Assembly (NCBI GenBank): GCA_029237695.1
Contig: CM055265.1
Location: 117,154,067-117,218,066, forward strand
Direction: 5' to 3'
DNA length: 64,000 bases
Origin: Conchocele bisecta
Lineage: Eukaryota; Mollusca; Bivalvia; Lucinida; Thyasiridae
Shown here: positions 30,881 to 55,010 of the stretch, in pieces
Position numbering within the stretch: the stretch's first letter is position 1
How the letters are laid out: every line of letters begins with the position of its first letter
Position numbers and translations under genes: made by a program
Notes under the pieces: generated by a model
The model's database searches: none
The model's input: only the letters and a program-made list of their open reading frames with translations
What the model was told of the DNA's origin: nothing

Positions 30881-30882
30881 AG

Positions 30883-31100: not shown

Positions 31101-31642
31101 AAAAGGGCGTACAATAATAAAGATCAGGGTCTACACTCAAATTCACACAAATTATGATAACGTAAGGAGAGCTTACACTGATATGCTTGAGGGTGTATTT
31201 GTGGCATATGTATACATATTGAACTATATTTGCATGTATTTCCCATATGATTGGTGATTCAATGTGCATAAATCGAACATATGGCCAATTTAACAGATGT
31301 ATTTGACTACATATGTAATTATATGATGTGTGTTGGTGTCAATATATGCTTTACACTAATATCTGACACTATCTATGGTGTATTTGTGGTATATTTATAT
31401 GTATTGAAACTATATTTGGGTGCATTTGAGTGTATTTGGGTGTTTCGTGTAACCGTTTCCCCGGACAACACTAGCATCATCACGAACTTTGCTCGTTCGA
31501 CGGTATGGCCGCACCACTTTTCAATACCCTCCTACGCCACTGCGTCACAATTAACTGTTACGTAAATGACGTCAATTATATTCGGAACTAAATTTTCCAA
31601 TAATTACAATGTATCTTTCTGACGGTACATGTATATAATCTA

Positions 31643-31902
31643 TCAAGGCCGTAGCCAGACCTAAAAATGAGACGAGGCGAAAACAACATTGTGAACAAGC
31701 GAGCGCGAAGCGCGACGCGCACCGCTAACGCGTGGCGTTTGGGGGTCCTCCCCCAAGATAGTTTGGACATCTAGATCGTCATAGACGCGATTTCCCGGCA
31801 CTTAGACCACCGGATACGGCATTAAATATAAACAAAATAAAAAATCGTCAAAATCTGAGACGAGGCGGCTGCCTCATCTGCCTCATCCTGGCTACTGGCC
31901 TG
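31643..31902. repeat. 260 bp MITE with GGCCGTAGCCAG ends
   Basis: TCAAGGCCGTAGCCAG and CTGGCTACTGGCCTG form inverted ends. GACGAGGCGAAAACAACATT on the left mirrors GAGACGAGGCGGCTGCCTCA on the right in part. Confidence 0.65.
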
Positions 31903-32090
31903 TCTATCATAGTTGGCGATGGTAGCAAATTACGAAGTCACATGTCGGCTAATTATAGATTAAAATCGATAGTGGTGCGTTTGGTTTGTTCACTACATGT
32001 ACATATCATAGTTTTATTCTGTTCAATGTTTGATAGTATGCATCCAGAGACCGTGAGTGTAATGATTTATTTGATATTGTCCGATACTGG

Positions 32091-32325
32091 GGCCCGTTTC
32101 ACTAAAATTCGTACGACTAAAATGTTCGTAAGTACAAATTTAGGATCGTCTGGAAATTTCAATAGATGGTTTTACATTTATTGAGCAGAGGCTTTATATG
32201 CAGCCTCTGCTCAATAAATGTAAATCCAATAATTGTTTACAAGAAAACATTGTTAATGTGAAATCCACAGATTTCATATTGCACTTACGAACATTTTAGT
32301 CGTACGAAGTTTAGTGAAGCGGCCC
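32091..32325. repeat. 235 bp MITE with 43 bp inverted ends and a nested hairpin
   Basis: GGCCCGTTTCACTAAAATTC at the left and its inverse GTTTAGTGAAGCGGCCC at the right extend over about 43 bases (GTACGACTAAAATGTTCGTA shared). A second, perfect 23 bp stem sits inside at 32,171-32,224 around loop TTATATGC. Confidence 0.85.
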
Positions 32326-32519
32326 ACAGGACACATGTTAAAATTGTTAATTTATAATTAAATATGTGTGTAACGTAACTTTAAGCCCAGCAGTATACCC
32401 AACATGCAGGTAAGTCGAAGGTGTGAAAGTCAAATGTTGGGAAAGTGAGACAGTCTAGACAGACCAAAAATCAAAATGTTGGGAAAGTGAGATACAACTC
32501 GATTTTCACCCGTGAAAAA

Positions 32520-32765
32520 CAATTAGTGCATCTCTAATATTGATAAATTTGTCGCACATTATTCTGAGAATGAGTCGATTTTTCTGCAACATTCACAAAT
32601 CAACATGCATTTCAAGAATCGTCCTAATCGTCTTCAGTAATTGGTTTTATTACCCCCATGAGGGCAACGACATTAAATCTGACCAAATCGCGTTGACAGG
32701 CAGATTTATTATTACATCAGCCGAGTATATTGGGTATTACGACAACTGTTCTTTATTGTAAAGGT
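32520..32765 (+). repeat. diverged copy of the palindrome arm end
   Basis: CATTTCAAGAATCGTCCTAA, CGTCTTCAGTAATTGGTTTT and CATTAAATCTGACCAAATCG match arm text at 33.47-33.51 plus 35.30-35.40 kb. They do so without the LINE that separates those two parts in the left arm. This confirms the uninterrupted original sequence. Confidence 0.75.
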
Positions 32766-32822
32766 GCATGCTCGTTCTGAGCCGACTCAATGCATCCACA
32801 CGGTTTACTAGCACATATATAA

Positions 32823-33067
32823 GACGCGCCATGCGATTTTGCACCTTCGGACATCTGCGTAATTCATGAAATACGTTTACAAAATTTATGATATTTTCCC
32901 TAAATGGCGTCAAAAGTTGACAACATTTTCAGGGTACAAGCGGAATATACTTCTGCATGTACACTTGGTAAACTTTTTACTTTATTTATGAAACATATTG
33001 TAAAGTTATTAAACGTATTTAATGAAATTACGCAGATGTCCGAAGGTACAAAATCGCATTGCGTGTC
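32823..33067. repeat. 245 bp MITE with ~57 bp inverted ends
   Basis: GACGCGCCATGCGATTTTGC through ATACGTTTA is mirrored by AAACGTATTTAATGAAATTA through GCATTGCGTGTC. It lies immediately outside the left palindrome arm. Confidence 0.82.
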
Positions 33068-33509
33068 TCATTATAAACGTACATTTGTATGTAGTGTTGA
33101 AATAGTTAATCCTTATGGTAAAACATGTATCATTTTTCAAGTGTTTAAAAAATGTTTAACAACACACAAGAACCATCTCCTGTGGAGAATAGTCCAATGT
33201 ACTGCCAAAACATGTTTATGGGCAGAAATAAGATAACATTTAGAAAATATTACAGACAACATAAATTGTTTCCTATTTTGTTAGTGTTGTGGCTGTATCT
33301 TGCCATTTCACTATGTTCTAACATTTTATAACATCAACTGTGTCACGTGCAACGATTTTGACCCGATAGAAACAATGTGTGCATCTAAAATATTGATAAA
33401 TATGTTTGCGCAACATTGTTCTTTGAAATAGACGAGTTTGTTTTTCAATACTATCAAACAACATGCAATTCAAGAAATCGCCCTATCTCTTAATGGTCTT
33501 CAGTAATGA

Positions 33510-35297
33510 TTTTTTTTTTTTTTTTTTTATATTTTCTTTTTTTTTACTTAATGGTTTATTTTCAATTTTTAAATACATCATGTATCGTGAACATATTGTA
33601 CAACAAAACATAGTTGAAATCACATGACATGTTACTAGAAAAGAGCATACATAATGTATTTAGAAAGTGAACTTATTTAAGAAGAGTTTTTTAAGAAGAG
33701 AGTTATAGGAAAGAGAAAAAAAAGATAAAGAGGTCTTCCTTCTGTTCTCGTAATTCGTAATACATGTGATGTATAACGTTTATGTCAATAATATAATATA
33801 GTTGACATATAGTGTTAATAAACATGTAATTAACTTTGCTACGCTTGGTACATATTGATCGTCTTTTTGTTTTATTAATATTTCTTTTGTGGGTGTTAAA
33901 AGTTGAAATTACCCCATTTTATTATATGTAGATCTAGCTTGTCTTTCATTGTGGCTATTTCTTTTTAAATGTTGATTCGTCTTTTCAAATATTGCATGAA
34001 CAAGTTAAATGACAATTCTTGTTTTTCATATTTACATTTAATGAAGAAATATTTTGCAAGTATGATAATGAAATTAAATTGTTTAGCGATAAGGTTTGTT
34101 TGGTTTACACCAAATGAAATAGTATTAAAGTTAATTTCGTAAACCACACCTCTTTCATTTAAGAATGTTCTTAGCTGTGACCATACATGTTGTACGTTTG
34201 GGCATTCCCAGAATAAATGTTTTATATTTTCCACATTCATCATGTTCATGCTGCAAAAATCACATAAACTACTTGGTTCCATGCCACAATTAAGTAATAA
34301 TTTATTTGTGCCTATGATTCTCATTAAATATTTATACTGAAAATTCCGTAGTGTGGTATCTATTGTAAATTGCATACAAGTCGTGTATATATTTTTCCAT
34401 TCGAAATTAAAATCGGGAAATTAATTCGTCCATTTCTGCTCTGATTTTATTGATTCTATGTTTTTTTTATTTGTTTGTATAGTGTATAGAAGTTTATTTA
34501 CTCCATTGCTTGTCTGTACTTTTTGTAAAATAGGTTTCAGAGTTTGTACGGTATTTATGTTTTCTGTTTTAATTTTTTCTTTCCATTGCAGATTAATATT
34601 ATTTACTAAACCTTGGTGTTTGATAAAATCATCTGCCCTTATATTATACATTTCCGCAAAATTATTAAAACCGATAAATTTGTTTACTCTATAATCATAT
34701 AACTGTTCTATAAATTTAATACCCCTTTCGTGCCAAGATTTGATGTATATTGTTTTGTTTTGATACTTTATGTTATAATTATTCCATATAATTTCTTTCG
34801 ATATACTTTAGATTTTTTCTGAGAAATTGATGTTAGCCCATGATGCCAAAACATTGAATAGGAAAGTATGTTTTTACATAAGTGTTTTATATCCTGCGGT
34901 TTTATATTGCATTCGAAAAGTAGTTTCCCACCAAATGGTTCAAGTTTCTGTGTGTATAGCAGTTTCCACTGGCCATGGTTTTTATCATCACATATTCTTT
35001 TTACCCATGCTGCTTTTATCGCTTTTATTAAACTGTCTATATCGACCATCTTTAAACCCCCGCGTTTATATGTTTGAATTATTGTGTTCCGCTTTATTTT
35101 ATCGGGTTTTCCATCCCAGAGAAAATCAAACAATTTCATTTTAGTTGTTTTAATTATGCTGTCTTGTGGGTCAGGTAAGACTGTTAATGTATATATTAGT
35201 TTCGGAAGAGCAAATGTTTTGATCACACTAATTTTACCTAATAAAATTAGTTTTCTTTTTTTCCATGTCTCAAGACTTTTGACGAACTCTTATTATG
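33510..35297 (-). mobile_element. 5'-truncated L1/Tx1-like LINE inserted in the left arm
   Basis: A poly-T run at 33,510 (poly-A on the minus strand) marks the 3' end. ATGA stands on both sides (33,506-33,509 and 35,298-35,301) as a short target duplication. The right arm and the diverged copy at 32.5 kb show the uninterrupted site (CAGTAATGAGTTTTATTAC). Confidence 0.88.
33965..35226 (-). pseudogene. C-terminal part of an L1/Tx1-like ORF2
   Basis: The piece at 35,226-34,768 reads TFALPKLIYTLTVLPDPQ, LFDFLWDGKPDKIKR and YKRGGLKMVDIDSLIKAIKA, the standard post-RT region of L1-type ORF2. The piece at 34,651-34,421 is a weakly conserved middle. The piece at 34,375-33,965 has NFQYKYLMRIIGTNKLLL, then SSLCDFCSMNMMNVENIKHL and FWECPNVQHVWSQL, the C-terminal zinc-knuckle block. 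The RT and endonuclease domains are missing by 5' truncation. Stops or frameshifts separate the three pieces. Family assignment is confident at the L1/Tx1 level and open below that. Confidence 0.85.
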
Positions 35298-35902
35298 ATG
35301 AGTTTTATTACGCCTATGGGGATACATTAAATCTGACCACGTCACGTTGACGGGGATTTATTATAGAATCATGCCGAGTTTCTTCGGTTTTCAGTTGACT
35401 GTTTTGTTTTATTTTATGCGGTTTGAAAACCACGCATCCGTGCCGTCTGATCTGGGTGTCAACTGTTCGCCATTCCATCAAAGAACAATTATTATTAATC
35501 CAGCGAACAATTATTTTACTAGCAACATGATCAAGCTGCAACAGTACAATTGCCAATCAGAATCTACACTGGTCATGAATGAAATACGCGCGGCTTTGTC
35601 AGAACGCAGCTCAAAGTATAGAGCTCGGCAAAAACAATTTAAGCTCCTGTTTTCGAGATACGCTTATGTATTCATCATTTATATATCAAATAAAACCATT
35701 TTTACAGTAATCTGACCAGTATGTGCCGTTCTTTTACGTATTTCATATTCCGGACAGCCAGTTTTTCCAGCCGTCACTGCATGACTAACTTCCCCTTAGT
35801 TTGCTTACCACAGTTATTTCCCTTTGCGGTCACGTGGCACATGTTCAAGTACTTGTACAAATGGGAGGAAAATACCAAAATCAGAACTGCATATTTGCAA
35901 TA

Positions 35903-36800
35903 AACAAGAATTCCGCCGCGGAAGCGGTGTCGCGCCTGCCGAGGCATTTGATCGTAGCATGGGCATCACAAAGACCGTCAGAGAAGTGCTCTACAAAGGT
36001 CACGGTTAAAGATTTTTTTTTACATAAAAAACGGTATTTCCACAACCATGTGAAGGTCAACTATACATCATCATGATTATGTTTTTAAAACATGGATATT
36101 CCCCTCTTGAATGTAAAATGGCTGAATGTTTCAGCGATCTTGTGACGATAAAAACAAAAGGTCAATGCCACGTTAATGGTGGCATGAGTGTGTTCCAAAT
36201 GCTCACATGTATCAAGTGTCCAAATATTGAAGCAATCCATCAACTAATTTAATATTATACAATGATGAATAACATTGTGCAAATTATTTAACGTAAACTA
36301 TGGCTATCCGCAAAAATGTAAAAGTACAAAAGGTTAATGCGGGCATGAGTGTGTTCCAAATGCTCACATGTATCAAGTGTCCAAATATTGAAGCAGTCTG
36401 TCAAGTAATATTAGAGTTATATTAATATCGAAGAAACTTGTACAAACTTTTTGATGCAACAAAATGGCTATATGTTTCCGCAAACAGATAGATACAAGAA
36501 AAGGTCATAGTCATATTAATGGCAGCATGCGTGTGTTCCGAATGATCACATGTATCAAGTTACCAAATATTGAAGAAATCCATGAAGTAATTTTAAAGTT
36601 ATAGCACGATGAAGAAACTTGTGCAAACGTTTTGACTAAAAAAAAGTGCTTCAGAAAAAATGTGAAGGTAAAAAAAGGTCAACGTCATGTTAATGGCGGC
36701 ATGAGTGTGTTCCAAATGCTTACATGTATCAATTGTCCAAACATTGAAGCAATCCATCAAGTAACATTAAACGGGCTCCAGCTTTGTTTGAGCAATTCCA
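35903..36800 (+). mobile_element. tandem-repeat element with the AAGAATTCCGCC end (left arm)
   Basis: ACAAGAATTCCGCCGCGGAA and GCGGTGTCGCGCCTGCCGAG open it. The same opening occurs at 54,083 and, reversed, at 51.58-51.63 kb. About four ~170 bp units follow (GGCATGAGTGTGTTCCAAAT at 36,180, 36,343, 36,522 and 36,700). Confidence 0.7.
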
Positions 36801-36959
36801 GTTGCTCAAAGTAACGACCCCATATGCATAAGGAGGTTGAAAAATTCAGACTGGACTTGACTATGGAAATTATCATAATATTTTAGTAGCCGACGACTGA
36901 TTGGTGTCACCATGAACCATTTCATAGACTGCATCTCTCTACGATCTCCTTTGCCTTCA

Positions 36960-37770
36960 AGCGTTATGAAAATGTTCATAAGAATTGTTCAGTAATCACC
37001 AGATCAACCACCGTTGTTACTCACATATTGAAGTCACTATGAAAATATTCATAACATTCCGTTCTCAGACAAACAATAGTCATTATGAAAATGTCCATAA
37101 ACCGTACTATCCATCTAATTATGACAATTTTCATAAAACGTAATATCGCTCTCACTATGAAACATTTTCATAAACCATACTATCTTTCTCAACATGTAAT
37201 ATCTCTCTCGCTATTAAAGTTTTCATAAAATGTAATATACCTCTCACTATGAAAATGTTGATAAACCATTCTATCCCTCATACATATTGAAGTCGCTACA
37301 AAAAAATTCATAACATTACTGTTTTCAGACAAATGTTAGTCGCCATGAAAATGTTCATCAAACGTACCATCGCTCCTGCATATTGTAGTCGCTATGCACA
37401 TTTTCATAACATTCCCGATCTCAGACAAACATTAGTCGCTATGAAAATTTGCATAATATTTCCGTTCTCAGACAAACATTAGTAGCTATGAAAATTTCCA
37501 TAAACGCACTTACGACATGTGTCAGTTGTATTCTCAGACAAACTTCTCAATCACTATACGAAATTTCTTAAAATGAAATGCTCTACAAGTTTGTTCGCCT
37601 CCAAACGGTATGAAAATTTGCATAAAAACTAATAAACGACATTCAACGGTGCAACTACCGTTGCAACGTTGTTCATCACATACATGTAGTGCAGTCAATA
37701 TGAAAATATTTCAATAGAGTTTCGTTCTGAAACAAACATTAGTAAGTCACTATGAACTTGTTCATAAAAT
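36960..37770 (+). repeat. ~60 bp degenerate repeats in the left arm
   Basis: CTATGAAAATGTTCATAA alternates with CGTTCTCAGACAAACATTAG about a dozen times. It is mirrored at 49.83-50.60 kb in the right arm. Confidence 0.8.
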
Positions 37771-40700
37771 GCAGCTAGGTTTACTACAAGTCATTGTTCC
37801 TATTGGCAGTAATTGTCACTATGTTAATCTTCCAAAGTTCTGTCAAATTAATGGGCTCTCTGATTCATAAGCATAATTGCAGCACGTGTAATAAACAGGA
37901 ACTGACATGACTCTTACACCAGGGAATCATGTTTAGACGCACGTACACATACTGGTTAAATATTAATTAGGTGGTCAAGCTATTGTAGAACATAAATGTG
38001 ACTGTGACTGGCAACATTGGGCTTATGTGATTTATGACGAGTGTAATTCCTAATAAAATGTAACACCTATTTAGGCTAAGAACGATATACAATGTATGTT
38101 GCTTTTTAGAAATATGATGAGCGTTTCATTCATGACGGTGTAGACCCTCATCAGACTACACGGATGTGCATACTACGCTGGTGGCATAGCCCATAAGTCC
38201 TGTTTTTCCATATTTTATCATATCGGCTGATAATATAACCAAACGAGTTAAAAGGTGACCATACTATCTACATGTATGACAAACATTACGTCACAAGTCA
38301 TGATCGGAAACAGTGCAAACTAGTAAGAATGTCCCATATAGCAAAGGAATTGTCCCATAAATATAGAACCTATATGTAATTCATCACACGCAAATGACGC
38401 CCACCTTCTTATAATATGTATACATGTAGGTACGATTATCATAATACTTGTATTTAGGGTTGAATCTAAGGAAAACTAAATAACGTATACATGCCTCAGT
38501 ATAATCCAATGTTCAGCAGTCAAAACGGAAAGCGTGATATGCCGCCGAAAGTACACTGCATGTTACGGGGCGGGATTAAATGCTGCGCCGGTACGGGGCT
38601 AAATCTTATGTTGTTGTCCGTCGTTTAATTTTTGTTTTCCACCGGTAGAACATGTCTTATATACATATGGGCCGCTCCATGCGAAAACCGGGCTTAATGA
38701 CAATGTCATGAAAAGCGGTAAACTTGTCGGAAAAACGACGATTCAATTTGTCTAACGTCGCCGTAAAAGTTTTGCCCTCCCATTTACGTTTATTGGTGTC
38801 AGTTAACATTAAGTGTGAACAGAAAAACGGAAAATTATATCTTACTGAAACTTTCACTAATATGAGACGCGATGCCTCAGTACACATATTATGACGTCAT
38901 GACGTGACATCTCGCACTTGTGACGTCACTGAACGTGAATCCATGTTTGACTTTATGGTCATGGTGTCGTGACAAAATATTATAGCAAGGATACTTGCAC
39001 GAGTTCCTCGCAGCATCAATGACTTACAAATGCTTGAGGCGCTGTACATTGTCGCCTAACTGTCGTTCATTGACATTGTCGCTCTTTTTCGTCGGTTATC
39101 CTCATGAATTCAAAATGGTGAACGCATAATTTTACTGGCTACATATTAGCGAAGTATTCACTTACACTGCACTTTGATTCCTAAATAACCTTAAATATGA
39201 ACCTAGTGTATGCCAACGATATTACCATCTATTATCTTGGTAATTTGAGACTTTAGAACAAGTCGAGCCTGTAATTAAGTTAGCGAATGATATGACATTT
39301 AATGCCACTCATTTTATCATAAACGGAGGTAGACACGCATCTATATAATGACATTAATATCCGGGGTTTGTATTGAATTTGGCAAGACAAATGCATCAAA
39401 ATCTTTCTTATAGATGCAGAATTAGTGATTTCAATGAAGCTTCTTGATTGTTTGTGAATAAGCAATACATAATGCACAAAACACACAGTGAGGTCGGTGG
39501 AGTTTTCGAAAAGTCTTATTAATTGGAAATTAATTGGAAATTTGATGGTCATAAACTTGCTTTCACCACGATGTGTAGTGTCAAATCATCAACTTATCAT
39601 CTGAATTCATAATACTGTATATCAGGTACATGTATATAATATTGTTGTAAGCGAAGGGCCTCGTATCCTTGTGTAGTGTATACAAATGTACATGCACGTG
39701 AAGCCTATGCAGTAATAAGTACCTGTTATTGGTTAGTCAGTTATACAAATCATTTACGAGGGGTGTTCACAAATTAAATTCCCGTAACATCTCTGATCAC
39801 GTAAACATGAATGAGATTAGTATGATTATTATGGAATAAACACTATAAAGTATCACTAGTGCTTGTTCTGGGCCGAATTGTCATTCGGGGGGGGGGGGGG
39901 GGGGGCGATCAAGCTAAGTTGTTAGAACTATTTTTTATGGCGTAAGACCCGTGATCGGGGTTGATAAAAAATAATATAATTATTATACTGAAAAGAAAAC
40001 TAGCGCTGCGAAAGCTAGTTTTGTGTGCAACTGATGACTAATTTAGTTTATGCTATTGTCTGAATACCGTCTATAACGTATTTGTAAGCCAATCGCTATC
40101 CACACCACAGTTATGAAACTATACCAATATGTGTATGTATAAATGGTTGCTGAGTGATGTGAACACATACCACTTCACGTGAGAGCATCGATTTATAGCA
40201 CTTTCATACCATTTACTGAACACCCCTCGGGTATATTCCGTGCACTAATGTAAACAGAAACATGGAGATTCGCCAGATATAAATATATGTTTTCATTTTT
40301 AACAATGTTCTACATGCACTTCCGACAGCTAAGTCAGGCAATGCAATTCACCTTTGTTCAAACATACCACCTGAAATACCAGCAGTAACATTATTGACTG
40401 CTGACGTTGTCGAAGTGGATTCCTTGTATGCGGCTGTTCGTGTACGGTATTAAAAATTGAAGTCATGGGGCAAGATTGGGCGAATATGGAGGATTGAATA
40501 ACGCCTCATTCGACGATATTTGATAATAGATTCATCCACTGTAACCACTCAATTGGAAAAATGTACATATATCATTTCAACTATCCTAACAATCGAGAGA
40601 AATTGATAACTCGCTTTCTGCTACATGTTCACCATCATCGGGATCCATCTAGCTCTAAGTCTCTTAATATTTAAATATTTTTAATCACACAATGAGTTCA

Positions 40701-41339
40701 ACCGATCTGGCATTTCACGAAAAGCTGCCAGTCGACCAAGACTTTTACATTGGGTCACAACGTCTGACGACGTCACTTTTGTACCTCCATGTCTGGCCTA
40801 GCCTTTCGATCATTCATGCCCATTGTCTATCCGACTGTATCGTTCGTATATTGTCATTCCGATGATGGACTTTCTCTGATCATCAATATCTCGTGTTTTG
40901 TGTTAAACTACAAACTTTAATATAATCTCATGGCATATTCTCTTACACAGAGCTGTCAGTCATTAAACTACGTCATTTCCGGCCATGATGTCAGATTTTT
41001 AAAATATTTCGTCGCATAGGAAATGTTAAATAATGTCGCTATTATTCCCCAAATTTATTTCAGACAGCAGCAAACAACAGGGAAACGCCAACACTTCTCA
41101 CTCTGCCTTATTTGAAAATCATTCATATGAAATTACATTACTTGGGCCGCAATCTAAAACATGAAGTTACATTAGCAAGTGCAACGCGAGCTATGAACAT
41201 TAGTTTCATACTTTGTCTTGGCCTAATGGGAAACACTTGGCCAAGCTACGAAATATCCAAATTTGGCTGACATGCGATAAAAGATGACAAATCTATAAGA
41301 CTTGTCCGGATATTTTATCAACACCAGTAGTATATAAGA

Positions 41340-41640
41340 GTCAAAATGATACCACCTCCCTCTGAGAGCCCCCACGCTACGCGCGGTGCCTCCCATCAGG
41401 AGGTGGTATCATATTTGCCTATTATATACTACTCTCCTGAAAATTACTACATAAATACATATAAAGAAAGAAATAAAAAAATCACCAAGTGTAGGCTCAA
41501 CTTTTATCGCCAAAAACATGAGAATGCGGTATTATGACAATGATAATTTTCTGTTGTCAAAATGATACCACCTCCCTCTGATAGTCCCCACGGTACACAC
41601 GGTGCCTCCCATCAGGAGGTGGTATCATTTTTGACTCTCA
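41340..41640. repeat. two ~70 bp hairpin mini-elements, left arm
   Basis: Each starts AATGATACCACCTCCCTCTG and ends CATCAGGAGGTGGTATCAT, giving a foldback of about 70 bp. The centre is GC-rich (CCCACGCTACGCGCGGTG). The copies lie at about 41,344-41,413 and 41,557-41,629. GAGTCAAAATGATACCACC is the shared outer edge. Confidence 0.85.
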
Positions 41641-41746
41641 TAAACTACTCAGGTTTCCTCCACTGTTCGCATGGTATGGATGCGAACTTTTATATATCAA
41701 TGAGGTCATAGTGACAACTCATAGGAGATGGTGATGCGAGATGTCA

Positions 41747-42070
41747 CCACCTCTGACAACATGTTAGAGATAAGCCGCTCCTATGTTATACTCAGTATAT
41801 ACAGCAATCTGCCATACATAGCAAAGCCTGTCATACACAACAAGTTACCACCTCTGACGTCCTGTTAGAGATAAGTCACCCCTAGGTTGTACTCAGTATA
41901 TACAGCAATCTACCATACATAGCAAAGCCTGTCATACATAGCAAGTCACCACCTCTGAACTTGTGTTAGAGATAAGTCATCCATAGGTTATACCAGTGGC
42001 CTGTCATACATAATAAGTCACCACCTTTTACAACCTGTTAGAGCAAAGACATCCATTAGTTATACTCATC
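41747..42070 (+). repeat. ~101 bp direct repeats just upstream of the SAP-like ORF
   Basis: Four units begin CACCACCTCTGAC-type text and continue TGTTAGAGATAAGTCA, then TACTCAGTATATACAGCAAT and AAGCCTGTCATACA. The last two are shortened. The right arm keeps only the outer part. Confidence 0.8.
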
Positions 42071-42073
42071 ATA

Positions 42074-42484
42074 ATGCCTACCATAAAGCAAATGAGAGAG
42101 CAAGCTAAGAGTTGGGGAATTTCCCTAAGAGGTTTGAAACTCAAGAAAGATATAGGGGATAGGATAAGTGGTGCGCGAGCTGTCGTTCGCGAGGAGAGGC
42201 TGCGTCGTGCGGTTTCGACCGGATGACTGCCTGCCGACCCTGAAAACCAATCCGAAAAATTGTAGAACGAGATGACGGCTAGTCTGCGTGCCACTGCTTA
42301 TGCGCAGAGTGTTAAAGACGACCACAGCACTCGGACAAACGCACTCCACAAAATCGAATACAACAGTATTAATCAAAGTATGATGGGGAGACCTCCTAGG
42401 AGGAGGTGTAATGTCGCCAGAGCTTTGGTGGAGGAGGATCTAGGATTCTCGCCGAAGAAGCTGAAGTTAGGGAAACTAATATAA
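42074..42484 (+). pseudogene. small basic ORF with SAP-like N-terminus, two in-frame stops
   Basis: From ATG at 42,074 one frame gives MPTIKQMREQAKSWGISLRG, then LKLKKDIGDRI. Both the spacing and the residues fit a SAP or KLRKAEL-type helix-turn-helix. Stops lie at 42,224-42,226 (TGA) and 42,263-42,265 (TAG) in the same frame. It then continues to GRPPRRRCNVARALVEED and SPKKLKLGKLI before the TAA at 42,482. The total would be about 136 residues, basic, with possible nuclear targeting runs. The right arm retains the C-terminal half (43,874-44,040, minus strand) as an inverted copy that runs toward the polymerase start. The SAP call is pattern-based and tentative. A DNA-binding or packaging protein of the large element is a reasonable guess. 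Confidence 0.5.
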
Positions 42485-42544
42485 AACGTCCACATCTCCT
42501 CCTCCCCCGTCCGTCTGGTGGCGGTGACCTCTTCCATGAACCAT

Positions 42545-43808
42545 GGAACGGTTTGCAGGGCGTGTAGTCTATCACCTTATGCACCGCCTTAATGACCATA
42601 TCGTGCTCCAGATAACACTTTTGCAGCGGGGAGTATATTATCACCTTCTTAACGGACAGTGCCCCCACGAGCTTTCTCTGATCCTAGTCCTCCCGGTCAT
42701 GGTCAGGTAGTCCTTCATGTGCTGCGGAACCTCGGTATCGTCGACTTCTCGCTTAATGAACAGCGGCGACATTTCCGAGAACTTATCTCGCAACGTTTCC
42801 GGGACCTCTATATCCAGCTCTGCAAATCCGAACCACTTGTCACGCCTGACCTTCCTCACAAAACAGTCTATATACGACTGTCTTTCCAGGTCGTCACACG
42901 TCCATATCTCCTCCTTCCCGCGCGGCATGTCCTTCGACAGGGTCGACAGGTACAGCGCATTGGCGTCGTACCCCAGCACCACCTTGCACATATTCTCCTC
43001 CCGAATCCCTACCTGACCCCTGATCGTTGACCTGCCAGCCTCGGCGTATCTGGAGAACACTATGGACGGACCACCAACCAACCCATCCTTCATCATCGCG
43101 TAAGTCTCATCCTTCGGTGACCACAGCTCGGGCGTGTCCGTCTCCCTATCGATCGACCCGCGGAGCAGGTACTGAAGGGAAACCCTCGGAAGAGATACCG
43201 CATCGTTGAGTATGTACACACCCCTCCCTCTGTAAGAACTCCGTCATTTCAGTCAGGGCCTCCAGGAACGGTCCGACATCCAAGTCGTTGCAGTGTTGCA
43301 ACCATTCTTGGAACGTCTTCATCCCCTTTTCTCGGAAGTTCCTTACTACGCGGTCCGTTATCGTGACCGAGGTATTCGCCAGCCAGAGATCTTGGCTCCT
43401 CACAGCAACGGATCTCCCTCCACGGTGAATGGCTATGCACCTAAACAGACACAAGTAGCCGTCGTACGTATCGACGGAATACATTCCCTTCTTCTGTCTT
43501 AACCAATCGGGGAGTATCCCTGCTCCCATGAAGAGTTGTTGCGCATCGATGATCATCTTCACCTCGACCGATATCCAACGAACGAATGTACATTTTGTGT
43601 TTGGACTATGGACTTTGTCGATCTCCATTCGACCTCTCTCTCTATCGGCTATCCAACTCTCCACTCTGGCGATCTCGTTTATCCACGGACTGCCCGGTGA
43701 ATGTTTGTGAAAGATCATCTTATCGTCGGTCTCGATGTTCCTAATACGATACGAGCACGAATACCTCAGATAACATGCAGTGGTCATCTCTGGCCGAATT
43801 GTATTCAT
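42545..43808 (-). pseudogene. family B DNA polymerase fragment (DNA_pol_B_2, Polinton-like)
   Basis: Minus strand, from ATG at 43,806-43,808. The N-terminal region has KMIFHKHSPGSPWINEIARV, VKMIIDAQQLF, LPDWLR and YLCLFRCIAIHRG, a set found upstream of the palm in these transposon polymerases. A one-base frameshift lies near 43,215. The next frame carries VVLGYDANALYLSTLSKDMP (motif A region, Asp of DxxxLYL present), FAELDIEVPETL and PLFIKREV. A second frameshift near 42,655 leads to KKVIIYSPLQKCYLEHDMVI and KAVHKVIDYTPCKPF, after which similarity stops near 42,545. Motifs B and C (the second catalytic Asp pair) are missing, so it cannot be active. It fills nearly the whole palindrome spacer. 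A stop codon overlaps the start as TAATG at 43,806-43,810, which suggests a compact gene pair. Confidence 0.8.
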
Positions 43809-44289
43809 TATGCGATCTCCCCGTCTATCCCTCTCTCGAAGGTCCAGACTATCTTCCTCCTACCCCTATCAACAGTTTCCCTAACTTCAGCTTCTTCGCG
43901 AGAATCCTAGGACCCTCCTCCACCAAAGCTCTGGCGACATTTCTCCTCCTCCTAGGAGGTCTCCCCATCAGACTTTGATTACTACTGTTGTATTCGATTT
44001 TGTGGAGTGCGTTTGTGCGAGTGCTGTGGTCGTCTTTAACAGGTGACTTATCTCTAACAGAACGTCAGAGGTGGTAACTTGTTGTGTATGACAGGCTTTG
44101 CTATGTATGGCAGATTGCTGTATATACTAAGTATAACATAGGGGTGGCTTATCTCTAACATGTTGTCAGAGGTGGTGACATCTCGCATCACCATCTCCTA
44201 TGAGTCGTCACTATGACATCATTGATATATATAAGTTCGCATCCATACCATGCGAACAGTGGAGGAAACCCGAGTAGTATATGAGAGTC

Positions 44290-44582
44290 ACAAATGATAC
44301 CACCTCCTGATGGGAGGCACCGTATGTAGCGTGGGTGCTCTCAGAGGGAGGTGGTATAATTTTGATAACAGCAAATTTTCATTGTCATAATACCGCATTC
44401 TCATGTTTTTGGCGATAAAAGTTGAGCCTACCCTTGGTGATTTTTTTATTTCTTTCTTTATATGTATTTATGTAATGATTTTTAGGTGAGAAGTATATAA
44501 GAGGCAAACATGATACCACCTCCTGATGGGAGGCACCGCGCGTAGCGTGGGGGCTCTCAGAGGGAGGTGGTATCATTTTGAC
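44290..44582. repeat. two ~70 bp hairpin mini-elements, right arm
   Basis: ATGATACCACCTCCTGATGG and GAGGGAGGTGGTATAAT/ATCATTT form foldbacks at about 44,294-44,362 and 44,509-44,578. A half copy (CTCAGAGGGAGGTGGTATCA) lies at about 45,103. Confidence 0.85.
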
Positions 44583-45858
44583 TTTTATATACAACTGGTG
44601 TTGATAAAATATCCGGACAAGTCTTATAGATTTGTCATCTTTTATCGCATGCCAGCCAAATTTGGATATTTCGTAGCCTGGCCAAGTGTTTCGCATTAGG
44701 CCAAGACAAAGTATGAAACTAATGTTCATAGCTCGCGTTGCACTTGCTAATGTAACGTCATGTTTTCGATTGCGGCCCAAGTAATGTAATTTCGTATGAA
44801 TAATTTTCAAATAAGGCAGAGTGAGAAGTGTTGGCGTTTCCCTGTTGTTTGCTGATGTCTGAAATAATTTTGTGGAATAATAGCGACATTATTAACATTT
44901 CCTATGCGACGAAATATTTTAAAAATCTGACATCATGACCGGAAATGATGTAGTTTAATGACTGACAGCTCCGTGTAAGAGAATATGCCATGAGATTATA
45001 TTAAAGTTTGTAGTTTAACACAAAACACGAGATATTGATGATGAGAGAAAGTCCATCATCAGGATGACAATATACGAACGATACAGTCGGATAGTGGGGC
45101 CTCTCAGAGGGAGGTGGTATCATTTTGACTCTTATATACTACTGGTGTTGATAAAATATCCGGACAAGTCTTATAGATTTGTCATCTTTTATCGCATGTC
45201 AACCAAATTTGGACTGACAGCTCTGTGTAAGAGAATATGCCATGAGATTATATTAACGTGTGCAGTTTAACACAAAACACGAGATATTGATGAGAGAAAT
45301 TCCATCATCAGGATGACAATATACGAACGATACAGTCAGATAGACAATGGACATGAATGCGCGAAAGGCAAGGCCAGACATGGAGGTACAAATGTGACGT
45401 CGTCAGACGTTGTGACCCAAAGTAAAAGTCTTGGTCGACTGACAACTTTTCGTGAAATGCCAGATCGGTTGAACTCATTGTGTGATTAAAAAGATTTAAA
45501 TATTAAGAGACATAGAGCTAGATGGATCCCGATGATGGAACATGTAGCAGAAGGCGAGTTATCAATTTCTCTCGATTGTTAGGATAGTTGAAATGATATA
45601 TGTACATTTTTCCAATTGAGTGGTTACAGTTGATGAATATATTATCAAATATCGTCGAATGGGGCGTTATTCAATCCTCCATATTCGCCCAATCTTGCCC
45701 CATGATTTCATTTTTTAATACCGTACACGAACAGCCGCATACAGGGAATCCACTTCGACAACATCAGCAGTCAATAATGTTACTGCTGGTATTTCAGGTT
45801 TTATGTTTGAACAAAGGTGAATTGCATTGCCTGACTTAGCTGTCGGAAGTGCATGTAG

Positions 45859-47228
45859 TATAAAAAAGATGTTATACCGTTTAATTTGAAAAATAATAAC
45901 CCATTGTGCTAGCACGAATGAAAGCATGGAAATGTTCTTCTTCCATTGAAAAATATGGAGCTTAACATTAACATAACGTCATTTTGACGTCGGGCCCCAT
46001 ATCTTGTGATGACGTTGTCTTGGTAGCGATAGAATTGCCCATGATACGTTAATGACGAGTTGTGCATATGAAATCGATGAAGCATTTATCAATCATCATG
46101 GATGTGCATTTTCAGTTAACCAAAGGCATATGGATGTTGCAGCATAATAATACTGGTTATTCAACCAACACTGGAGTGACCGTACAACTTTATGTACATA
46201 TTGTGCTTGCAAATCTTCTGAAATTATCCCGCGGGACCATAACCCAAACCGCGTAAATATAATACATAATTGGATGTTGCAGTTGCAGGTTATGCACATG
46301 GGATGCCCATCCCTCATTTTAGATATGTGTGACGAATGACTTTCATATCATGATAAAGTTGTGTTATTTTAATTACACATCGACTCTATTGTTGGTCAGA
46401 GGTTGGTAAGTGATTTGAACACCCCTGCAGACAATAGAAAAGTTTGCATCTATATGCAAACCTGGGCACGAAATAGTTCGTGCTTCACGGTAAACCACAC
46501 ACGCTGTGCAGCTATGGTCATTTGGTGACACGCGGAATACCTGCTGAGAAAATGGACCTTACGACGGCGACTGCAGCCCACATCAGTACACATTTGCGCA
46601 ATTTGATCAGGGGATACGTTGGTCGCAATTCAAGCAATTAAAGTTATTATTGTCACCGACTTGCAGAATTTGATCAATATATCGACCGAATAACTACAAA
46701 TGGTGGTGAGAATCTGTACTGGTCACTCATACATGTAATGTACATACATTGTTTTATCAACCAGCGACCCACGCGAGTAGCGAGAATCAGATTGGTGCAG
46801 CCTGGAGTACATGTATTTTTACTAAAGTGTTTTGTTAATCCACTGGGAATTTGAAAAAAATAACCAGGAGACACGAATTAGACAGACAACACATTTCAAT
46901 TAAACACGTCTTTAATTCCGAGAGGTATGAATTAAAGACGGTCGATTTTTACGTTTTTCGTCTCCAGGGACTGTCCACAGAAGTTCCCACTCCATCTGCC
47001 CCTCTACTCAGACAAGGAATATATGCAGTAACATTTCAATCGTTGGCATTTATTTTGCGGATTCGGACATCTTGGTTCGGCTATCGAAGGGATACATGAA
47101 AGATGATAAACAAACACACACATTTCACTTGTAATCGAGTTGCGGGGACCAACCTGGGTCAGTAGCTGACGTATAGAAGAAATATGTTAACATAAAGACT
47201 CACGGAAGACATGACTAAAGTGTAATAA
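45859..47228. mobile_element. 1.37 kb unidentified insertion, right arm only
   Basis: The left arm reads GGAAGTGCATGTAGAACATT (as reverse complement). In the right arm ATGTAG is followed by 1,370 bases and then ATGTAG again (45,853-45,858 and 47,229-47,234), a 6 bp target duplication. The ends TATAAAAAAGATG and AAAGTGTAATAA show no clear inverted repeat. No coding domain is recognised in the frames at 46,062-46,317 or 46,851-47,099. Confidence 0.72.
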
Positions 47229-47820
47229 ATGTAGAACATTGTTAAAAATGAAAAAATATATTCATACCTGGCGAATCTCCATGTTTCTGTTTACATTAGT
47301 ACACGGAATATACCCGAGGGGTGTTCAGTAAACGGAAGGAAAGTGCTATAAATCGAAGTGGTATGTGTTCACATCATTCAGCAACCATTTATACATACAT
47401 GTAATACACATATTGGTATAGTTTCATAACTGTGGTGTGGATAGCGATTGGCTTACAAATACGTTATAGTCTGTATTCAGACAATAGCATAAACTAAAAT
47501 TAGTCATCAGTTGCACACAAAACTAGCTTTCGCAGCGCTAGTTTTCTTTTCAGTATAATAATTATATTATTTTTTATCAACCCTTATCACGGGTCTTACG
47601 CTATAAAAAATAGTTCTAACAACTTAGCTTGATCGCCTTTTCAGTGTGATACATGTTTTCGTAGTCGGGTTGCGACGATCAACCACCATACACGATTAGT
47701 TGCGACTCGTAACTCCATGGTTCGGTGTACGAATACAATCTTCAGTTTCGGCTTCCATTCTCATAAATCTCTATTTATCATTTTTGGTTTTCCAAAAATA
47801 TATTTTTCACTCAACATTTT

Positions 47821-47860
47821 CGCCCCCCCCCACCTTCCCCCCCCCCCCAACCAATGTCAA
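47821..47860. repeat. C-rich tract next to an arm-specific segment
   Basis: CGCCCCCCCCCCACCTTCCC and a further C run stand where the left arm has only a 19-base G run (39,887-39,905). The left arm lacks about 180 bp here. Confidence 0.7.
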
Positions 47861-49829
47861 TTCCGCCCAGAACAAGCAATAGTGATACTTTATTGTGTCT
47901 ATTCCATAATAATCATACTAATGTCATTCATGTTTACGTGATCCGAGATGTTACGGGAATTTAATTTTTGAACACCCCTCGTAAATGATTTGTATAACTG
48001 ACTTAACCAATAACAGGTACTTATTACTGCATATGCTTCACGTGCATGTACATTTGTATACACTACACCAGGATACGAGGCCCTTCGCTTACAAACAAAT
48101 TATATACATGTACCTGATATACATTATTATGCATTCAGATGATAAGCTGATGATTTGACACTACACATCGTGGTGAAAGCAAGTTTATGACCATCAAATT
48201 TCCAATTAATTTCCAATTAATAAGACTTTTCGAAAACTCCACCGACCTCACTGTGTGTTTTGTGCATTATGTATTGCTTATTCACAAACAATCAAGAAGC
48301 TTCATTGAAATCACTAATTCTGAATCTATTAGAAAGATTTTGATGAATTTGTCTTGCCAAATTCAATACAAACCCCGGATATTAATGTCATTATATAGAT
48401 GTGTGTCTACCTCCGTTTATGATGAAATGAGTGGCATTAAATGTCATATCATTCGCTAACTTAATTACAGGCTCGACTTGTTCTAAAGTCTCAAATTACC
48501 AAGATAATAGATGGTAATATCGTTGGCATACACTAGGTTCATATTTAAGGTTATTTAGGAATCAAAGTGCAGTGTAAGTGAATACTTCGCTAATATGTAG
48601 CCAGTAAAATTATGCGTTCACCATTTTGAATTCATGAGGATAACCGACGAAAAAGAACGACAATGGCAATGAACGATAAGTTAGGCGATAATGTACAGCG
48701 CCTCAACCATTTGTAAGTCATTGATGCTGCGAGGAACTCGTGCAAGTATCCTTGCTATAATATTTTGTCACGATACCATGGCCATAAAGTCAAACATTAG
48801 ACAATTAAAATCGTCGTTTTTCCGACAAGTTTACCGCTTTTCATGACATTGTCATTAAGCCCGGTTTTCGTATGGCGCGGCCCATATGTATATGCGACAT
48901 GTTCTACCGGTGGAAAACAAAAATTTGACAGACAACAACATAACATTTAGCCCTGTAAGGTTTAGTCATGCATACAGACATGAATACCGGCGCAGCATTT
49001 AATCCCTCCCTATAACTTGCAGTGTACTTTCGGCGGCATATCACGCTTTCCGTTTTGACTGCTGAACATTGGATTATACTGAGGCATGTATACGTTATTT
49101 AGTTTTCCTTAGGTTCAACCCTAAATACAAGTATTATGATAATCGTACCATACATGCATACATATTATAAGAAGATGGGCGTCATTTGCGCGTGATGAAT
49201 TTCATATAGGTTCTATATTTATGGGACAATTCCTTTGCTATATGGGACATTCTTACTAGTTTGCACTTTTTCCGATCATGACTTGTGACATAATGTTTGT
49301 CATGCATGTAAATAGTATGGTCACCTTTTAACTCGTTTGGTTATATTATCAGCCGAAATGATAAAATATGGAAAAACGGGACTCATGGGCTATGCCACCA
49401 GTGTAGTATGCACATCCGTGTAGTCTGATAAGGGTCTACACCGTCATGAATGAAACGCTCACGATATTTCTAAAAAGCAACATACATTGTATATCGTTAT
49501 TAGCCTAAATAGGTGTTACATTTGATCAGGAATTACACTCGTCATAAATCACATAAGCCCAATGTTGCCAGTCACAGTCACATTTATGTTCTACTATAGC
49601 TTTTTAAAACACTGACCACCTAATTAATAACCAGTATGTGTACGTGTGTCTAAACATGATTCCCTGGTGTAAGAGTCATGTCAGTTCTTGTTTATTACAC
49701 GTGCCTCAATTATGCTTATAAATAAGAGAGCCCATTAATTTGACAGAACTTTGGAAGATTAACATAGTGACAAATTACTGCCAATAGGAACAATGACATG
49801 TAGTAAACCTAGCTGCATTGTATGAACAA

Positions 49830-50600
49830 GTTCATAGTGACTTACTAATGTTTGTTTCAGAACGAAACTCTATTGAAATCTTTTCATATTGACTGCACTA
49901 CATGTATGTGATGAACAACGTTGCAACGGTAGTTGCACCGTTGAATGTCGTTAATTAGTTCTTATGCAAATTTCCATAACGTTTACAATGATAGAGAAGT
50001 TTGTCTGAGAATACAACTGACACGTGTCGTAAGTGCGTTTATGGAAATTTTCATAGCTACTAATGTTTGTCTGAGAACGGAAATATTATGCAAATTTTCA
50101 TAGCGACTAATGTTTGTCTGAGATCGGGAATGTTATGAAAATGTTCACTACAATATGCGGGAGCGATGGTACGTTTGATGAACATTTTCATGGCGACTAA
50201 CATTTGTCTGAAAACAGTAATGTTATGAAATTTTTGTAGCGACTTCAATATGTATGAGGGATAGAATGGTTTATCAACATTTTCGTAGTGAGAGGTATAT
50301 TACATTTTATGAAAAGTTTAATAGCCAGAGAGATATTACATGTTGAGAAGGATAGTATGGTTTATGAAAATGTTCATAGTGAGAGCGATATTACATTGTA
50401 TGAAAATTGTCATAGTTAGATGGATAGTACGGTTTATGGACATTTTCATAATGACTATTGTTTGTCTGAGAACGGAATGTTATGAACATTTTCATAGTGA
50501 CTTCAATATGTGAGTAACAACGGTGGTTGATCTGGTGATTACTGAACAATCCTTATGAACATTTTCATAACGCTTGAAGGCAAAGGAGATCGTAGAGAGA
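49830..50600 (-). repeat. ~60 bp degenerate repeats in the right arm
   Basis: Reverse-complement counterpart of 36.96-37.77 kb, with TTATGAACATTTTCATAGTG and CTAATGTTTGTCTGAGAACG units. Confidence 0.8.
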
Positions 50601-50689
50601 TGCAATCTATGACATGGTTCATGGTGACACCAATCAGTCGTCGGCTACTAAAATGGGATGAAATATTATGATAATTTCCATAGTCAAGT

Positions 50690-51632
50690 CCAGTCTGAAT
50701 TTTTCATAGAATTGCTCAAACAAAGCTGGAGCCCGTTTAATGTTACTTGATGGATTGCTTCAATGTTTGGACAATTGATACATATAAGCATTTGGAACAC
50801 GCTCATGCCGCCATTAACTTGACCTTGAACTTTTTTTACCTTCACATTTTTTCTGAAGCACTTTTTTTTAGTCAAAACGTTTGCACAAGTTTCTTCATCA
50901 TGCTATAACTTTAAAATTGCTTCATGGATTGCTTCAATATTTGGACACTTGATACATGTGATCATTCGGAACACACGCATGCTGCCATTAATATGACGAT
51001 GACATTTTCTTGTCTTTACCTGTTTGCGGAAACACATAGCCATTTTGTTGCATCAAAAAGTTTGTACAAGTTTCTTCGATATTAATATAACTCTAATAAT
51101 ACTTGACAGATTGCTTCAATATTTGGACACTTGATACATGTGAGCATTTGGAACACACTCATGCCCGCATTAACCTTTTGTACTTTTACATTTTTGCGGA
51201 AACACATAGCCATAGTTTACGTCAAATAATTTGCACAATGTTATTCATCATTGTATAATATTAAATTAATTTATGGATTGCTTCAATATTTGGACACTTG
51301 ATACATGTGAGCATTTGGAACACACTCATGCCACCATTAACGTGACATTGACCTTTTGTTTATATCGTCACAAGATCGCTGAAACATTTAGCCATTTTAC
51401 ATTCAAGAGGGGAATATCCATGTTTTAAAACATAATCATGATGATGTCTAGTTGACCTTCACATGGTTGTGGAAATACCGTTTTTCATGTAAAAAAATAA
51501 ATCTTTAACCGTGACCTTTGTAGTGCTTTAAGCATGCACTTCTCTGACGGTTTTTGTGATGCCCATGTTACGATCAAATGACTCGGCAGGCGCGACACCG
51601 CTTCCGCGGCGGAATTCTTGTTTATTGCAAAT
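50690..51632 (-). mobile_element. tandem-repeat element with the AAGAATTCCGCC end (right arm)
   Basis: Counterpart of 35.90-36.80 kb, ending (on the plus strand) with GGCGCGACACCGCTTCCGCG and GCGGAATTCTTG. Confidence 0.7.
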
Positions 51633-52392
51633 ATTCAGTTCTGATTTTGGTATTTCCTCCCATTTGTACATGTACTTGAACATGTGTCACGTGACCGCAA
51701 AGGGAAATAACTGTGGTAAGCAAATTAAGGGGAAGTTAGTCATGCAGTGACGGCTGGAAAAACTGGCTGTCCGGAATATGAAATCCGTAAAAGAACGGCA
51801 CATACTTGTCAGATTACTGTAAAAATGGTTTTATTTGATATATAAATGATGAATACATAAGCGTATCTCGAAAACAGAAGCTTAAATTGTTTTTGCCGAG
51901 CTCTATGCTTTGAGCTGCGTTCTGACAAAGCCGCGCGTATTTCATTCATGACCAGTGTAGATTCTGATTAGCAATTGTACTGTTGAGGCTTGATAGTAAA
52001 ATAATTGTTCGCTGGATTAATAATCATTGTTCTTTGATGGAATGACGAACAGTTGACACCCAGATCAGACGGCACGGATGCGTGGTTTTCAAACCGCATA
52101 CAATAAAACAAAACAGTCAACTGAAAACCGAAGAAACTCAGCATGACTCTATAATAAATCCCCGTCAACGTGACATGGTCAGATTGAATGTATCCCCATA
52201 GGGGTAATAAAACTCATTACTGAAGACCATTAAGAGATAGGGCGATTTCTTGAATTGCATGTTGTTTGAGAATATTGAAAAACAAACTCGTCCAATTCAA
52301 AGAACAATGTTGATGCAAACACATTTATCAATATTTTAGATGCACATATTGTTTTTCTCGGGTACAAATCATTGCACGTGACACAGTTGATG

Positions 52393-52656
52393 TTATAAAA
52401 TGTTAGAAAATAGTGAAATGGCAAGATACAGCAACAACACTAACAAAATAGGAAACAATTTATGTTGTCTGCAATCTTTTCTAAATGTTATCTTATTTCT
52501 GCCCATAAACATGTTTTGGCAGTACAAAGACCAACAAAGATACATATCTGACGTCACTTTGTCGCATCGACGTACAATACATACATTACGTCCACAGGTG
52601 ACGGAAAAAAAAATAACATGACGGTGTATATATATATAGATATTAAAGGTTAGCAA
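52393..52656 (-). other. open frame crossing the outer palindrome border
   Basis: Its last ~40 codons (FMGRNKITFRK, QHKLFPILLVLLLYLAISLF) are also open in the left arm (about 33,210-33,330, plus strand) with few changes. The sequence looks like a short basic stretch followed by one membrane segment. It resembles a signal anchor, but nothing recognisable follows. It may be chance or the remains of a first exon. Confidence 0.25.
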
Positions 52657-53640
52657 CGAACTTTACGAAGTGAAAGACGTGCCTTTTAAAAATCTGTTAA
52701 TATGATAGAAATCGGTACCTTACTATTCCGTTTGATGTTTAATATTTGTGAAAATACACCAGTCCGGGTCTCGGTGCCGTTTACTGGGTGTAAGAGTACC
52801 TTGCGCCTGTGGTACAGCACTAGATTTGAACCTAGTCCTCCCCCGAAAAAAGTCGTCGTTATCGAGGGTCCCTGAATTGTTGCTCAAATTTCCCATTATC
52901 GAGTATTTTTAGACGTTCAAACACGTCGACATTTATAATGTTACATTTAAACCGATTTTGTATACGTCCAAAGTGAAGTACACATCCTGGTATGCTCGCT
53001 ATGCTTCTTACTTGTGGACAAAATCGAATTTTTATCTTTCTTCATCAGAAAATTCAATCGACCTATTTTACAACGGCCATTTTTATATTTTTGCATTTTT
53101 TACTTTAAATTATTTTCACAATTTGAAATCTACATTCCTTTGTGCTAAACAAAACAGAGAATTACACCGACTACAGTGTACAATACTACGTAAGTTTATC
53201 GGCTAACTTTCGAGGTTGTGTCAACGCATGGTTACTTGAATAGTTCTGTGGGTGGGGTATTGATCTGGTAACGTTTCTGTCACAGCAGTCGCCGAGCCAT
53301 AATAATTTGATTTGTGTATCGATTTGATAAATATACTATTTTGGGGTATTTTATACAGCGGATCTAACATGTTAGGTGATTTTTATGGTATTTATTAATA
53401 GACTACTAACTGTATAAGAAACTACGCTAAGCCGAGTTTCTTATGCAATCAGTGAATCATAATGAGTTTAATATTAAATATCATGTTAAGTAATCAGTTA
53501 TTTAATATCCTATTTATTGTATAATATAATCATAGAAACATACTCAAGCTGTACTGATCAATTAACTGAATGTTTTCTGTAGCCTAGTTTCTTACACTAA
53601 CTAGTAGTAGTACATATTTGACCTGTATGGAAAGGGGGTT
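52657..53640. other. no recognisable gene
   Basis: The plus-strand frame at 52,958-53,206 (82 codons, rich in Phe and Tyr) has no known motif. CTAGATTTGAACCTAG near 52,830 is a short palindrome containing a reversed B-box-like string, and no tRNA fold is possible. Confidence 0.5.
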
Positions 53641-54119: not shown

Positions 54120-55010
54120 GAGGCATTTGACCGTGAACATTACAAGTAAATAAATTACCTTGACCTTCAGAATTTGGATGTGGGGGTGTGCATAGTGAAG
54201 CATCATCCATAGACAAATATTGATGTGAAATATTATCAATGTCTGGAAAGGGGTTAAAGAGATATTGTAAAAAAACAATAACTTTAACGCATTTCTGTTA
54301 CAAATCCGGTGAACATTACAAGTAAATAAATGACCTTGACCTTCAAAATTTGGATGTGGGGGTGTGCGTAATGAAGCATCATTCCTAGACAAACATTGAT
54401 GTGAAATATTATCAAAGTCTGGCAAGGGGTTAAAGAGATATTGTGAAAAACAATAACTTTAAGCCATTTCTGTTACAAAACCGGTGAACATTACAAGTAA
54501 ATAAATGACATTGACCTTGAGAATTTGGATGTGGGGGTGTGCGTAATGAAGCATCATCCCTAGATAAACATTGATGTGAAATATTATCAAAGTCTGGCAA
54601 GGGGTTAAAGAGATATTGTGAAAAAACAATAACTTTAACATATTTCTGTTACAAAACCGGTGAACATTACAAGTAAATAAATGACCTTGAACCTGATAAT
54701 TTGGATGTGGGGGTGTGCGTAATGAAGCATCATTCCTAGATAAACATTGATGTGAAATATTATCAATGTCTGGCAAGGGGTTAAAGAGATATTGTGAAAA
54801 AACAATAACTTTAACGCATTTATGTTACAAAACCGGTTAACTTTACAAGGAAATAAATGACCTTGACCTTCAAAACTTGGATGTGGGGGTGTGCGTAATG
54901 AAGCATCATCCCTAGACAAACATTGATGTGAAATATTATCAATGTCTGACAAGGGGTTAAAGAGATATTGGGAAAAATAAATAACTTTAACGCATTTGCC
55001 TTACAAAAAA
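54120..55010 (+). repeat. ~175 bp tandem array, five units
   Basis: Units carry AACATTACAAGTAAATAAAT, GACCTTGACCTTCAAAATTT, GGATGTGGGGGTGTGCGTAA and AAGGGGTTAAAGAGATATTG. The reverse frames at 54,078-55,164 are open only because the unit lacks stops in one frame. Confidence 0.92.

Follow-up and report, generated by a model that had tools for sequence, protein, structure and literature searches.

A palindrome of ~19.3 kb in the genome of the bivalve Conchocele bisecta is very probably an old chromosomal inverted duplication, one breakpoint of which fell inside an inserted Polinton (a Polinton/Maverick element) in a segmentally duplicated region. It lies within a stretch of 64,000 nucleotides (GenBank assembly GCA_029237695.1, contig CM055265.1, positions 117,154,067 to 117,218,066 of the forward strand), here called the window. 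The self-comparison proposed in the preliminary description of this DNA, made with BLAST and a repeat finder, recovered two inverted arms at 33198-42477 and 43874-52526, with the outer coordinates given there (33198 and 52526). The chained alignments are 96.1% identical over 6,747-6,753 columns, and a chance origin is excluded because the leading BLAST block between the arms reaches 5,121 bits. The spacer at 42478-43873 measures 1,396 bp, in agreement with the ~1.4 kb described earlier, and has a G+C content of 52%, compared with 36.6% for 5 kb sampled from the left arm. The left arm (+) consists of host DNA at 33198-41325 followed by the polymerase-side end of the Polinton at 41326-42477; its inverted counterpart, the right arm (-), consists of the Polinton end at 43874-44596 and host DNA at 44597-52526. 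The spacer holds a truncated Polinton polymerase gene on the minus strand and is contiguous with the right arm.

The position of the Polinton terminus is central to this interpretation. The terminus is found inside the arms, at 41326 (+) and 44596 (-), and the host flank outside it, TATCAACACC, is shared by both. In the left arm ~1.15 kb (1,152 bp) belongs to the Polinton and in the right arm ~0.72 kb. The remainder is not Polinton; the greater part of either arm lies beyond the terminus and is host DNA. On the left, the Polinton end shows an AGTAGT terminus, an imperfect hairpin of ~108 bp, tandem repeats of ~101 bp and remnants of open reading frames (ORFs); on the right, the terminus at 44596 reads AGTTGT and 429 bp are lacking. 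In most copies examined, the first ~108 bp of the element (41326-41433 in the window) form this imperfect hairpin, with AGTAGT-like sequence at both ends. An origin from two convergent copies of the element, each inserted independently, was considered and rejected, as the host flank is shared and the arrangement thus reflects one event.

Copies of the same locus without the palindrome are present nearby. Among the best 40 of 2,883 candidates, a 673-bp piece of host DNA from the arm is matched over its full length four times. All four matches lie on chromosome C1 and comprise both arms as well as copies at 117411031 (minus) and 117631297 (minus). The other 36 scored matches are at most 566 bp long and 88-90% identical, and represent a dispersed repeat. 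The stretches around the two additional copies, U2 (L033) and U3 (L035), lie 0.21 and 0.43 Mb from the window copy; in them the Polinton end abuts on the host flank just as it does in the window, so that one insertion with its flank is seen at three places within ~0.44 Mb of one chromosome. In both, the polymerase sequence runs on past the breakpoint of the window, and no inverted self-match of at least 150 bp was found within the fetched stretches. Across 2,854 columns, the arms are 96.2% identical to each other and U2 and U3 98.35%, the cross pairs reaching 95.3-95.7%. At the informative sites, 48 join the two arms and none contradicts this grouping; with L037 and L038, two stretches matching the outer left arm, the counts are 14 and 0 over 1,699 columns. 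The arms are evidently sisters relative to the paralogs, and their split is ~0.85 times as deep as the one that separates them from U2 and U3. An inversion joining two older units was rejected on the same counts (48:0 and 14:0), as it would not make the arms sisters. Segmental duplications of either orientation cluster locally at C1:116.57-117.69 Mb, and the window lies inside this cluster.

The same assembly (1.89 Gb) was searched with a spacer segment, and the best 40 of 4,471 candidates were scored. Sixteen stretches from 15 places were fetched (L014 and L015 overlap) and, with three adjoining ones, gave 19 in total. Thirteen of these (L017-L029) were chosen for the rank of their match or as places found in both listings, and L014 and L015 (C6) and L016 (C10) for inverted pairs seen there. 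An unbroken alignment crosses the right inner junction in 15 of the 19 stretches, L014 and L015 being two arms of one locus, and the junction is collinear in U2 and U3 too; the query gave no match in L020, L030 and L031. The left inner junction is crossed in none of the 19, and its two halves are found apart in seven. From this difference it follows that the spacer is continuous with the right arm and that its connection to the left arm arose by rearrangement, and the symmetry centred on the spacer that had been proposed does not hold, the spacer being collinear with the right arm only. Junction 1 contains a filler of ~25 bp (42478-42502) without a match to the arm or to the polymerase family; most copies match the family only as far as 42503, and no convincing source of the filler was found.

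The outer edges differ from each other. The outer-arm piece X (788 bp) has near-full copies at C1:117687653 and C1:116574351. Gapped matches to the window cover 27615-39272 in L038 (+), in the same order, and 30281-37942 in L037, in reverse, both across 33198; the left flank (27615-33197, +) is collinear with the outer left arm in L038 (+) and partly in L037 (-). As these two stretches continue across 33198 into the left flank, that position is no element end, and 52526 is the second junction (52526/52527), where the right arm stops and an unrelated right flank begins. The outer ends of the palindrome read TGTACTGCC, and the combination of (AGT)2 and a 6-bp duplication is not found there: no target-site duplication was detected at these ends, the flanks sharing only chance 5-mers. 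The left and right flanks show short scattered repeat matches to each other and no collinear homology. The preliminary description had proposed a search for other copies with the same outer ends; the C1 paralogs run through the left edge. An early reading of the left arm as the copy was dropped given L037 and L038. About 65 bp past junction 2 (52592-53300) begins a very uniform high-copy repeat, 96-98% identical among its 40 best copies.

The polymerase in the spacer is a relic, and we propose no present function for the palindrome. Two open pieces remain on the minus strand, one of 237 codons at 43146-43859, covering the N-terminal region and present as a segment in other copies, and one of 200 codons at 42641-43243 in a different frame; the two overlap and represent one minus-strand gene in two frames. 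The window's own pieces gave no Pfam match (E ≤ 1; for a third piece E ≤ 10) and no informative match in PHROGs, and comparison with PDB sequences returned no match or only matches with E of 0.088 or worse. Scans of IMG/VR and GTDB were uninformative, a single contig being returned with a match in an unrelated ORF; phage records, Rfam and a tRNA search gave nothing informative, and none of the 29 ORFs searched with Pfam, out of 48 of at least 70 amino acids in and around the palindrome, reached the cut-off. The broken gene of DNA_pol_B_2 type reported earlier is borne out through its relatives: ORFs of other copies at the place of the second piece match this family, and among ORFs over the spacer-matching segment PF03175 (DNA_pol_B_2) is found in L028:4386-5468 with E 7.1e-8 (32.2 bits vs a cut-off of 25.8) and, below the cut-off, in L027 (1.1e-5) and L018 (4.7e-4).

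The family to which the relic belongs is abundant in this genome. The spacer segment is high-copy, its relatives among the best 40 of 4,471 being 87-91% identical. Similarity among most fetched copies ends sharply at a shared terminus, mostly reading AGTAGTATATGG...GTCAAAATGATACC. Genome-wide, the terminal motif with at most one mismatch occurs 368 + 364 = 732 times, versus 0 + 0 for the reversed control; as one element may hold several such motifs, these are counts of motif copies and not of elements. One copy on C7 (49686596-49701661, 15.07 kb, of which the middle 5.9 kb was not fetched) has a terminal inverted repeat of 289 bp (90%) with an AGTAGT end, and TAAACT is found at both of its flanks with one base ambiguous. 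A Pfam scan of 20 native ORFs of family copies identified Capsid_N in L027:6768-7649 (E 1.7e-5, 24.9 bits vs a cut-off of 24) and, below the cut-off, in L032 (E 9.4e-4); the packaging ATPase Pox_A32 in L032:6819-7502 (E 1.2e-10, above the cut-off); and a weak integrase match, PF00665 rve, in the full-length L026:7202-7789 (E 9e-5, 23.1 bits, below the cut-off of 32.6). Nothing else exceeded the cut-off. The affinity to Polinton/Maverick elements suggested previously is thus supported by the family's terminus, polymerase, capsid and ATPase. PMC10294476 reports Mavericks in all mollusc genomes analysed. In the vertebrate Mavericks of PMC8097293, the ends read (AGT)2, target sites are duplicated over 6 bp, the terminal repeats measure 46-1,447 bp and the polymerase is protein-primed.

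Mismatches are spread along the arms in a near-Poisson manner (variance/mean of 1.20, 1.07 and 1.00 for windows of 50, 100 and 200 columns), as expected for one event. The left arm alone holds the 3' end of a non-LTR (long terminal repeat) retrotransposon at 33506-35297 (-), 1,792 bp long with a poly-T and a zf-RVT match below the cut-off (E 5.9e-5); the piece is absent from L037 and L038. A 188-bp piece at 38755-38942 (+) is shared by the left arm and the paralog L038 and is not in the right arm. A 429-bp piece at 41881-42309 (+) is present in the left arm and in U2 (95.6%) and deleted from the right arm. The right arm in turn has a 1,382-bp stretch at 45853-47234 (-), composed of a 1,376-bp block and one 6-bp copy of CTACAT, of which the left arm has a single CTACAT at that site and lacks the block. 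Because U2 and U3 carry most of it, the difference reads as a left-arm loss at a 6-bp direct repeat, and insertion of the block into the right arm as a transposon was dropped. A SAP-like coding region had been described as copied in both arms, but its core (42059-42223, +) is present in the left arm only, the right arm being without the 429 bp that U2 retains; Pfam made no SAP call for this ORF even at E ≤ 10. Elsewhere in the window, a piece of a non-LTR reverse transcriptase lies at 14788-16107 (RVT_1, E 8.8e-19), and satellite-like arrays at 5515-8019 (units of ~168 bp), 12715-13823 and 16908-17237 (both ~65 bp, and related to each other) and 54133-55008 (~176 bp).

Taken along the chromosome, the sequence passes from the left flank through X, the host unit and the Polinton end to 42477, then through the filler into the opposite polymerase strand, and along this strand back through the Polinton end, the host unit and X to 52526, where the right flank follows. 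The polymerase strand joined at 42477 lies 1.4 kb further into the element by the count of the window, and more in other copies. The comparison shows that the sequence was broken, turned back and rejoined; the mechanism we infer as follows. A Polinton inserted into host DNA. Inside it, a double-strand break or a collapsed fork would later have been resolved in one of three ways: fold-back annealing, head-to-head fusion between sister chromatids broken at unequal points, or template switching during replication; a second break would have been rejoined at 52526. After the duplication, the arms diverged by point mutations, the retrotransposon insertion on the left and deletions in both. The polymerase lies at the centre of the palindrome because the breakpoint fell inside that Polinton. 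The review PMC9199198 lists fold-back, U-type chromatid fusion, crossing-over between low-copy repeats and replicative template switching as routes to inverted duplication. We had considered the orientation of the spacer to favour template switching over fold-back and gave this up, as a dicentric can break on either side.

Several observations weigh against an inverted duplication of this kind or complicate it. The palindrome is known from assembled sequence, and the data do not tell fold-back, chromatid fusion and template switching apart. Microhomology was not seen at junction 1, where a 25-bp gap separates the matched ranges, nor at the similar locus L022 described below, where the ranges abut without overlap. 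The match of L027 begins exactly at the right-junction base, and this copy lacks ~94 bp there. The innermost 168 bp of the arms (42310-42477 and 43874-44041) are 90.5% identical versus 96.3% elsewhere (Fisher p 0.0007). Finally, X and the host unit meet near 38906 in both arms; this arrangement differs in U2 and U3 and requires an additional, earlier rearrangement. Near U3 the two units lie ~56 kb apart, and the 5 kb that follow L038 have no counterpart in the window, which points to a separate change at an earlier time.

Among the alternatives, an assembly artefact, in which two divergent haplotypes of one locus were placed head to head, deserves the most attention, and we consider it improbable. 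The divergence of 3.9%, the one-sided retrotransposon and the other insertions and deletions would also fit two alleles, and alleles would likewise look like sisters against the paralogs. However, the window contains no N, the flanks show no collinear homology, and the artefact requires two separate misjoins, one inside the Polinton with a filler of ~25 bp and the other at 52526; a second locus, L022, moreover has the same geometry. Recombination between the natural inverted terminal repeats of the Polinton on sister chromatids, copying the host flank, is less plausible still. The family does have such repeats, and crossing-over between inverted low-copy repeats of sister chromatids is described in PMC9199198, but both arms extend beyond 289 bp into polymerase-side sequence (the Polinton part of the left one measures 1,152 bp) and the joined strand in L022 is the polymerase interior and not the far end. 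A copy with lengthened repeats, as the C6 locus might be, would first be needed.

A mobile element that spans all ~19 kb and is bounded by giant terminal inverted repeats, either an unusual Polinton or a new class, we regard as the most remote of the explanations. The central polymerase and the long inverted arms led to this idea, and a palindrome on C6 with arms of 5.09 kb and 99.3% identity inside a Polinton could be taken in its favour. Yet the terminus of the family sits inside the arms, the outer ends lack a duplication, and the left outer edge has collinear counterparts in flanking DNA at other places; the full-length family member has a terminal repeat of 289 bp, the fetched stretches of the paralogs hold no palindrome, and the full-length host-piece copies number four among the best 40 of 2,883, all on C1. 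The preliminary description had suggested a replication-linked inverted duplication of a large self-synthesising element, of which the inverted duplication is retained and the single 19-kb element is not, or else an unknown class with giant inverted repeats, which is contradicted by the mostly host-derived arms, the 289-bp repeat and the unfolded paralogs. What appeared to be a giant inverted-repeat element is thereby replaced by an example of inverted duplication with outgroups, the unfolded paralogs serving as controls.

The inverted duplication in the window is not the only one with a breakpoint in this family. In L022 (C12:14235500-14245499), two arms of 1,737 bp at 1803-3539 and 5222-6958 are 96.4% identical; both include a Polinton terminus, bordered on its outer side by a host flank common to the two, at a host site that differs from that of the window. 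The spacer, made of polymerase-gene sequence, runs on directly from one arm, and the matched ranges meet with no filler between them. At C6:1807730-1818552 (L014 and L015), the arms end ~60 bp short of the terminus, and the 646-bp spacer lies in the capsid region, collinear with the left arm; this palindrome is very young. The inverted pair on C10 (L016) has arms of 91% identity, no closer than separate copies, and may represent two elements. Of the 13 stretches fetched without regard to pairing, one (L022) has an inverted self-repeat of 900 bp or more, and none was found in nine chosen for other reasons (L030-L038). On a speculative and rather improbable reading, integrated Polintons would be preferred sites of inverted duplication, and the window, C12 and C6 would represent three independent products; the counts describe the fetched stretches and not the genome as a whole, and the tendency is a proposal only. 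The hairpin-like terminus, stalled replication or the element's own replication or integration enzymes acting on the integrated copy might underlie such a preference, through breakage of the chromosome or turning of the fork inside the element. If true, Polinton-centred palindromes would recur and help to build local segmental duplications. The palindrome also raises the question whether Polintons, which bring a polymerase and an integrase of their own, are struck by such breakpoints at a higher rate than other repeats present in as many copies. Our literature search, judged by titles and the start of abstracts, returned no paper on inverted duplication in Polintons.

Among known systems, the window shares with Polinton/Maverick elements the (AGT)2 terminus and the DNA_pol_B_2-type polymerase, found in the spacer and inner arms, and the family members add the capsid, the packaging ATPase, the weak integrase match and short direct flank repeats. 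Unlike a full element, the window copy is a polymerase-side relic only, with the far end absent, and unlike vertebrate Mavericks, whose terminal repeats measure 46-1,447 bp (PMC8097293), its long arms are mostly host DNA. C12 and C6 resemble the window as inverted duplications with a breakpoint inside a Polinton, C12 also copying the host flank, and differ from it in their sites and junctions. Human inverted duplications, as described in PMC3907307, have single-copy spacers of 766-70,466 bp (median 3,428), with insertions at 5 of 21 junctions and inverted microhomology of 2-8 bp at 13 of 21. Like the fold-back inverted duplications presented there, the window contains inverted copies around a spacer, here of 1.4 kb, with extra bases at the junction and no adjoining sequence from beyond the breakpoint. 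In contrast to those cases, the palindrome of the window is small (arms of 9.3 and 8.7 kb), interstitial and old (3.9% divergence), and no terminal deletion or translocation is seen in the window.

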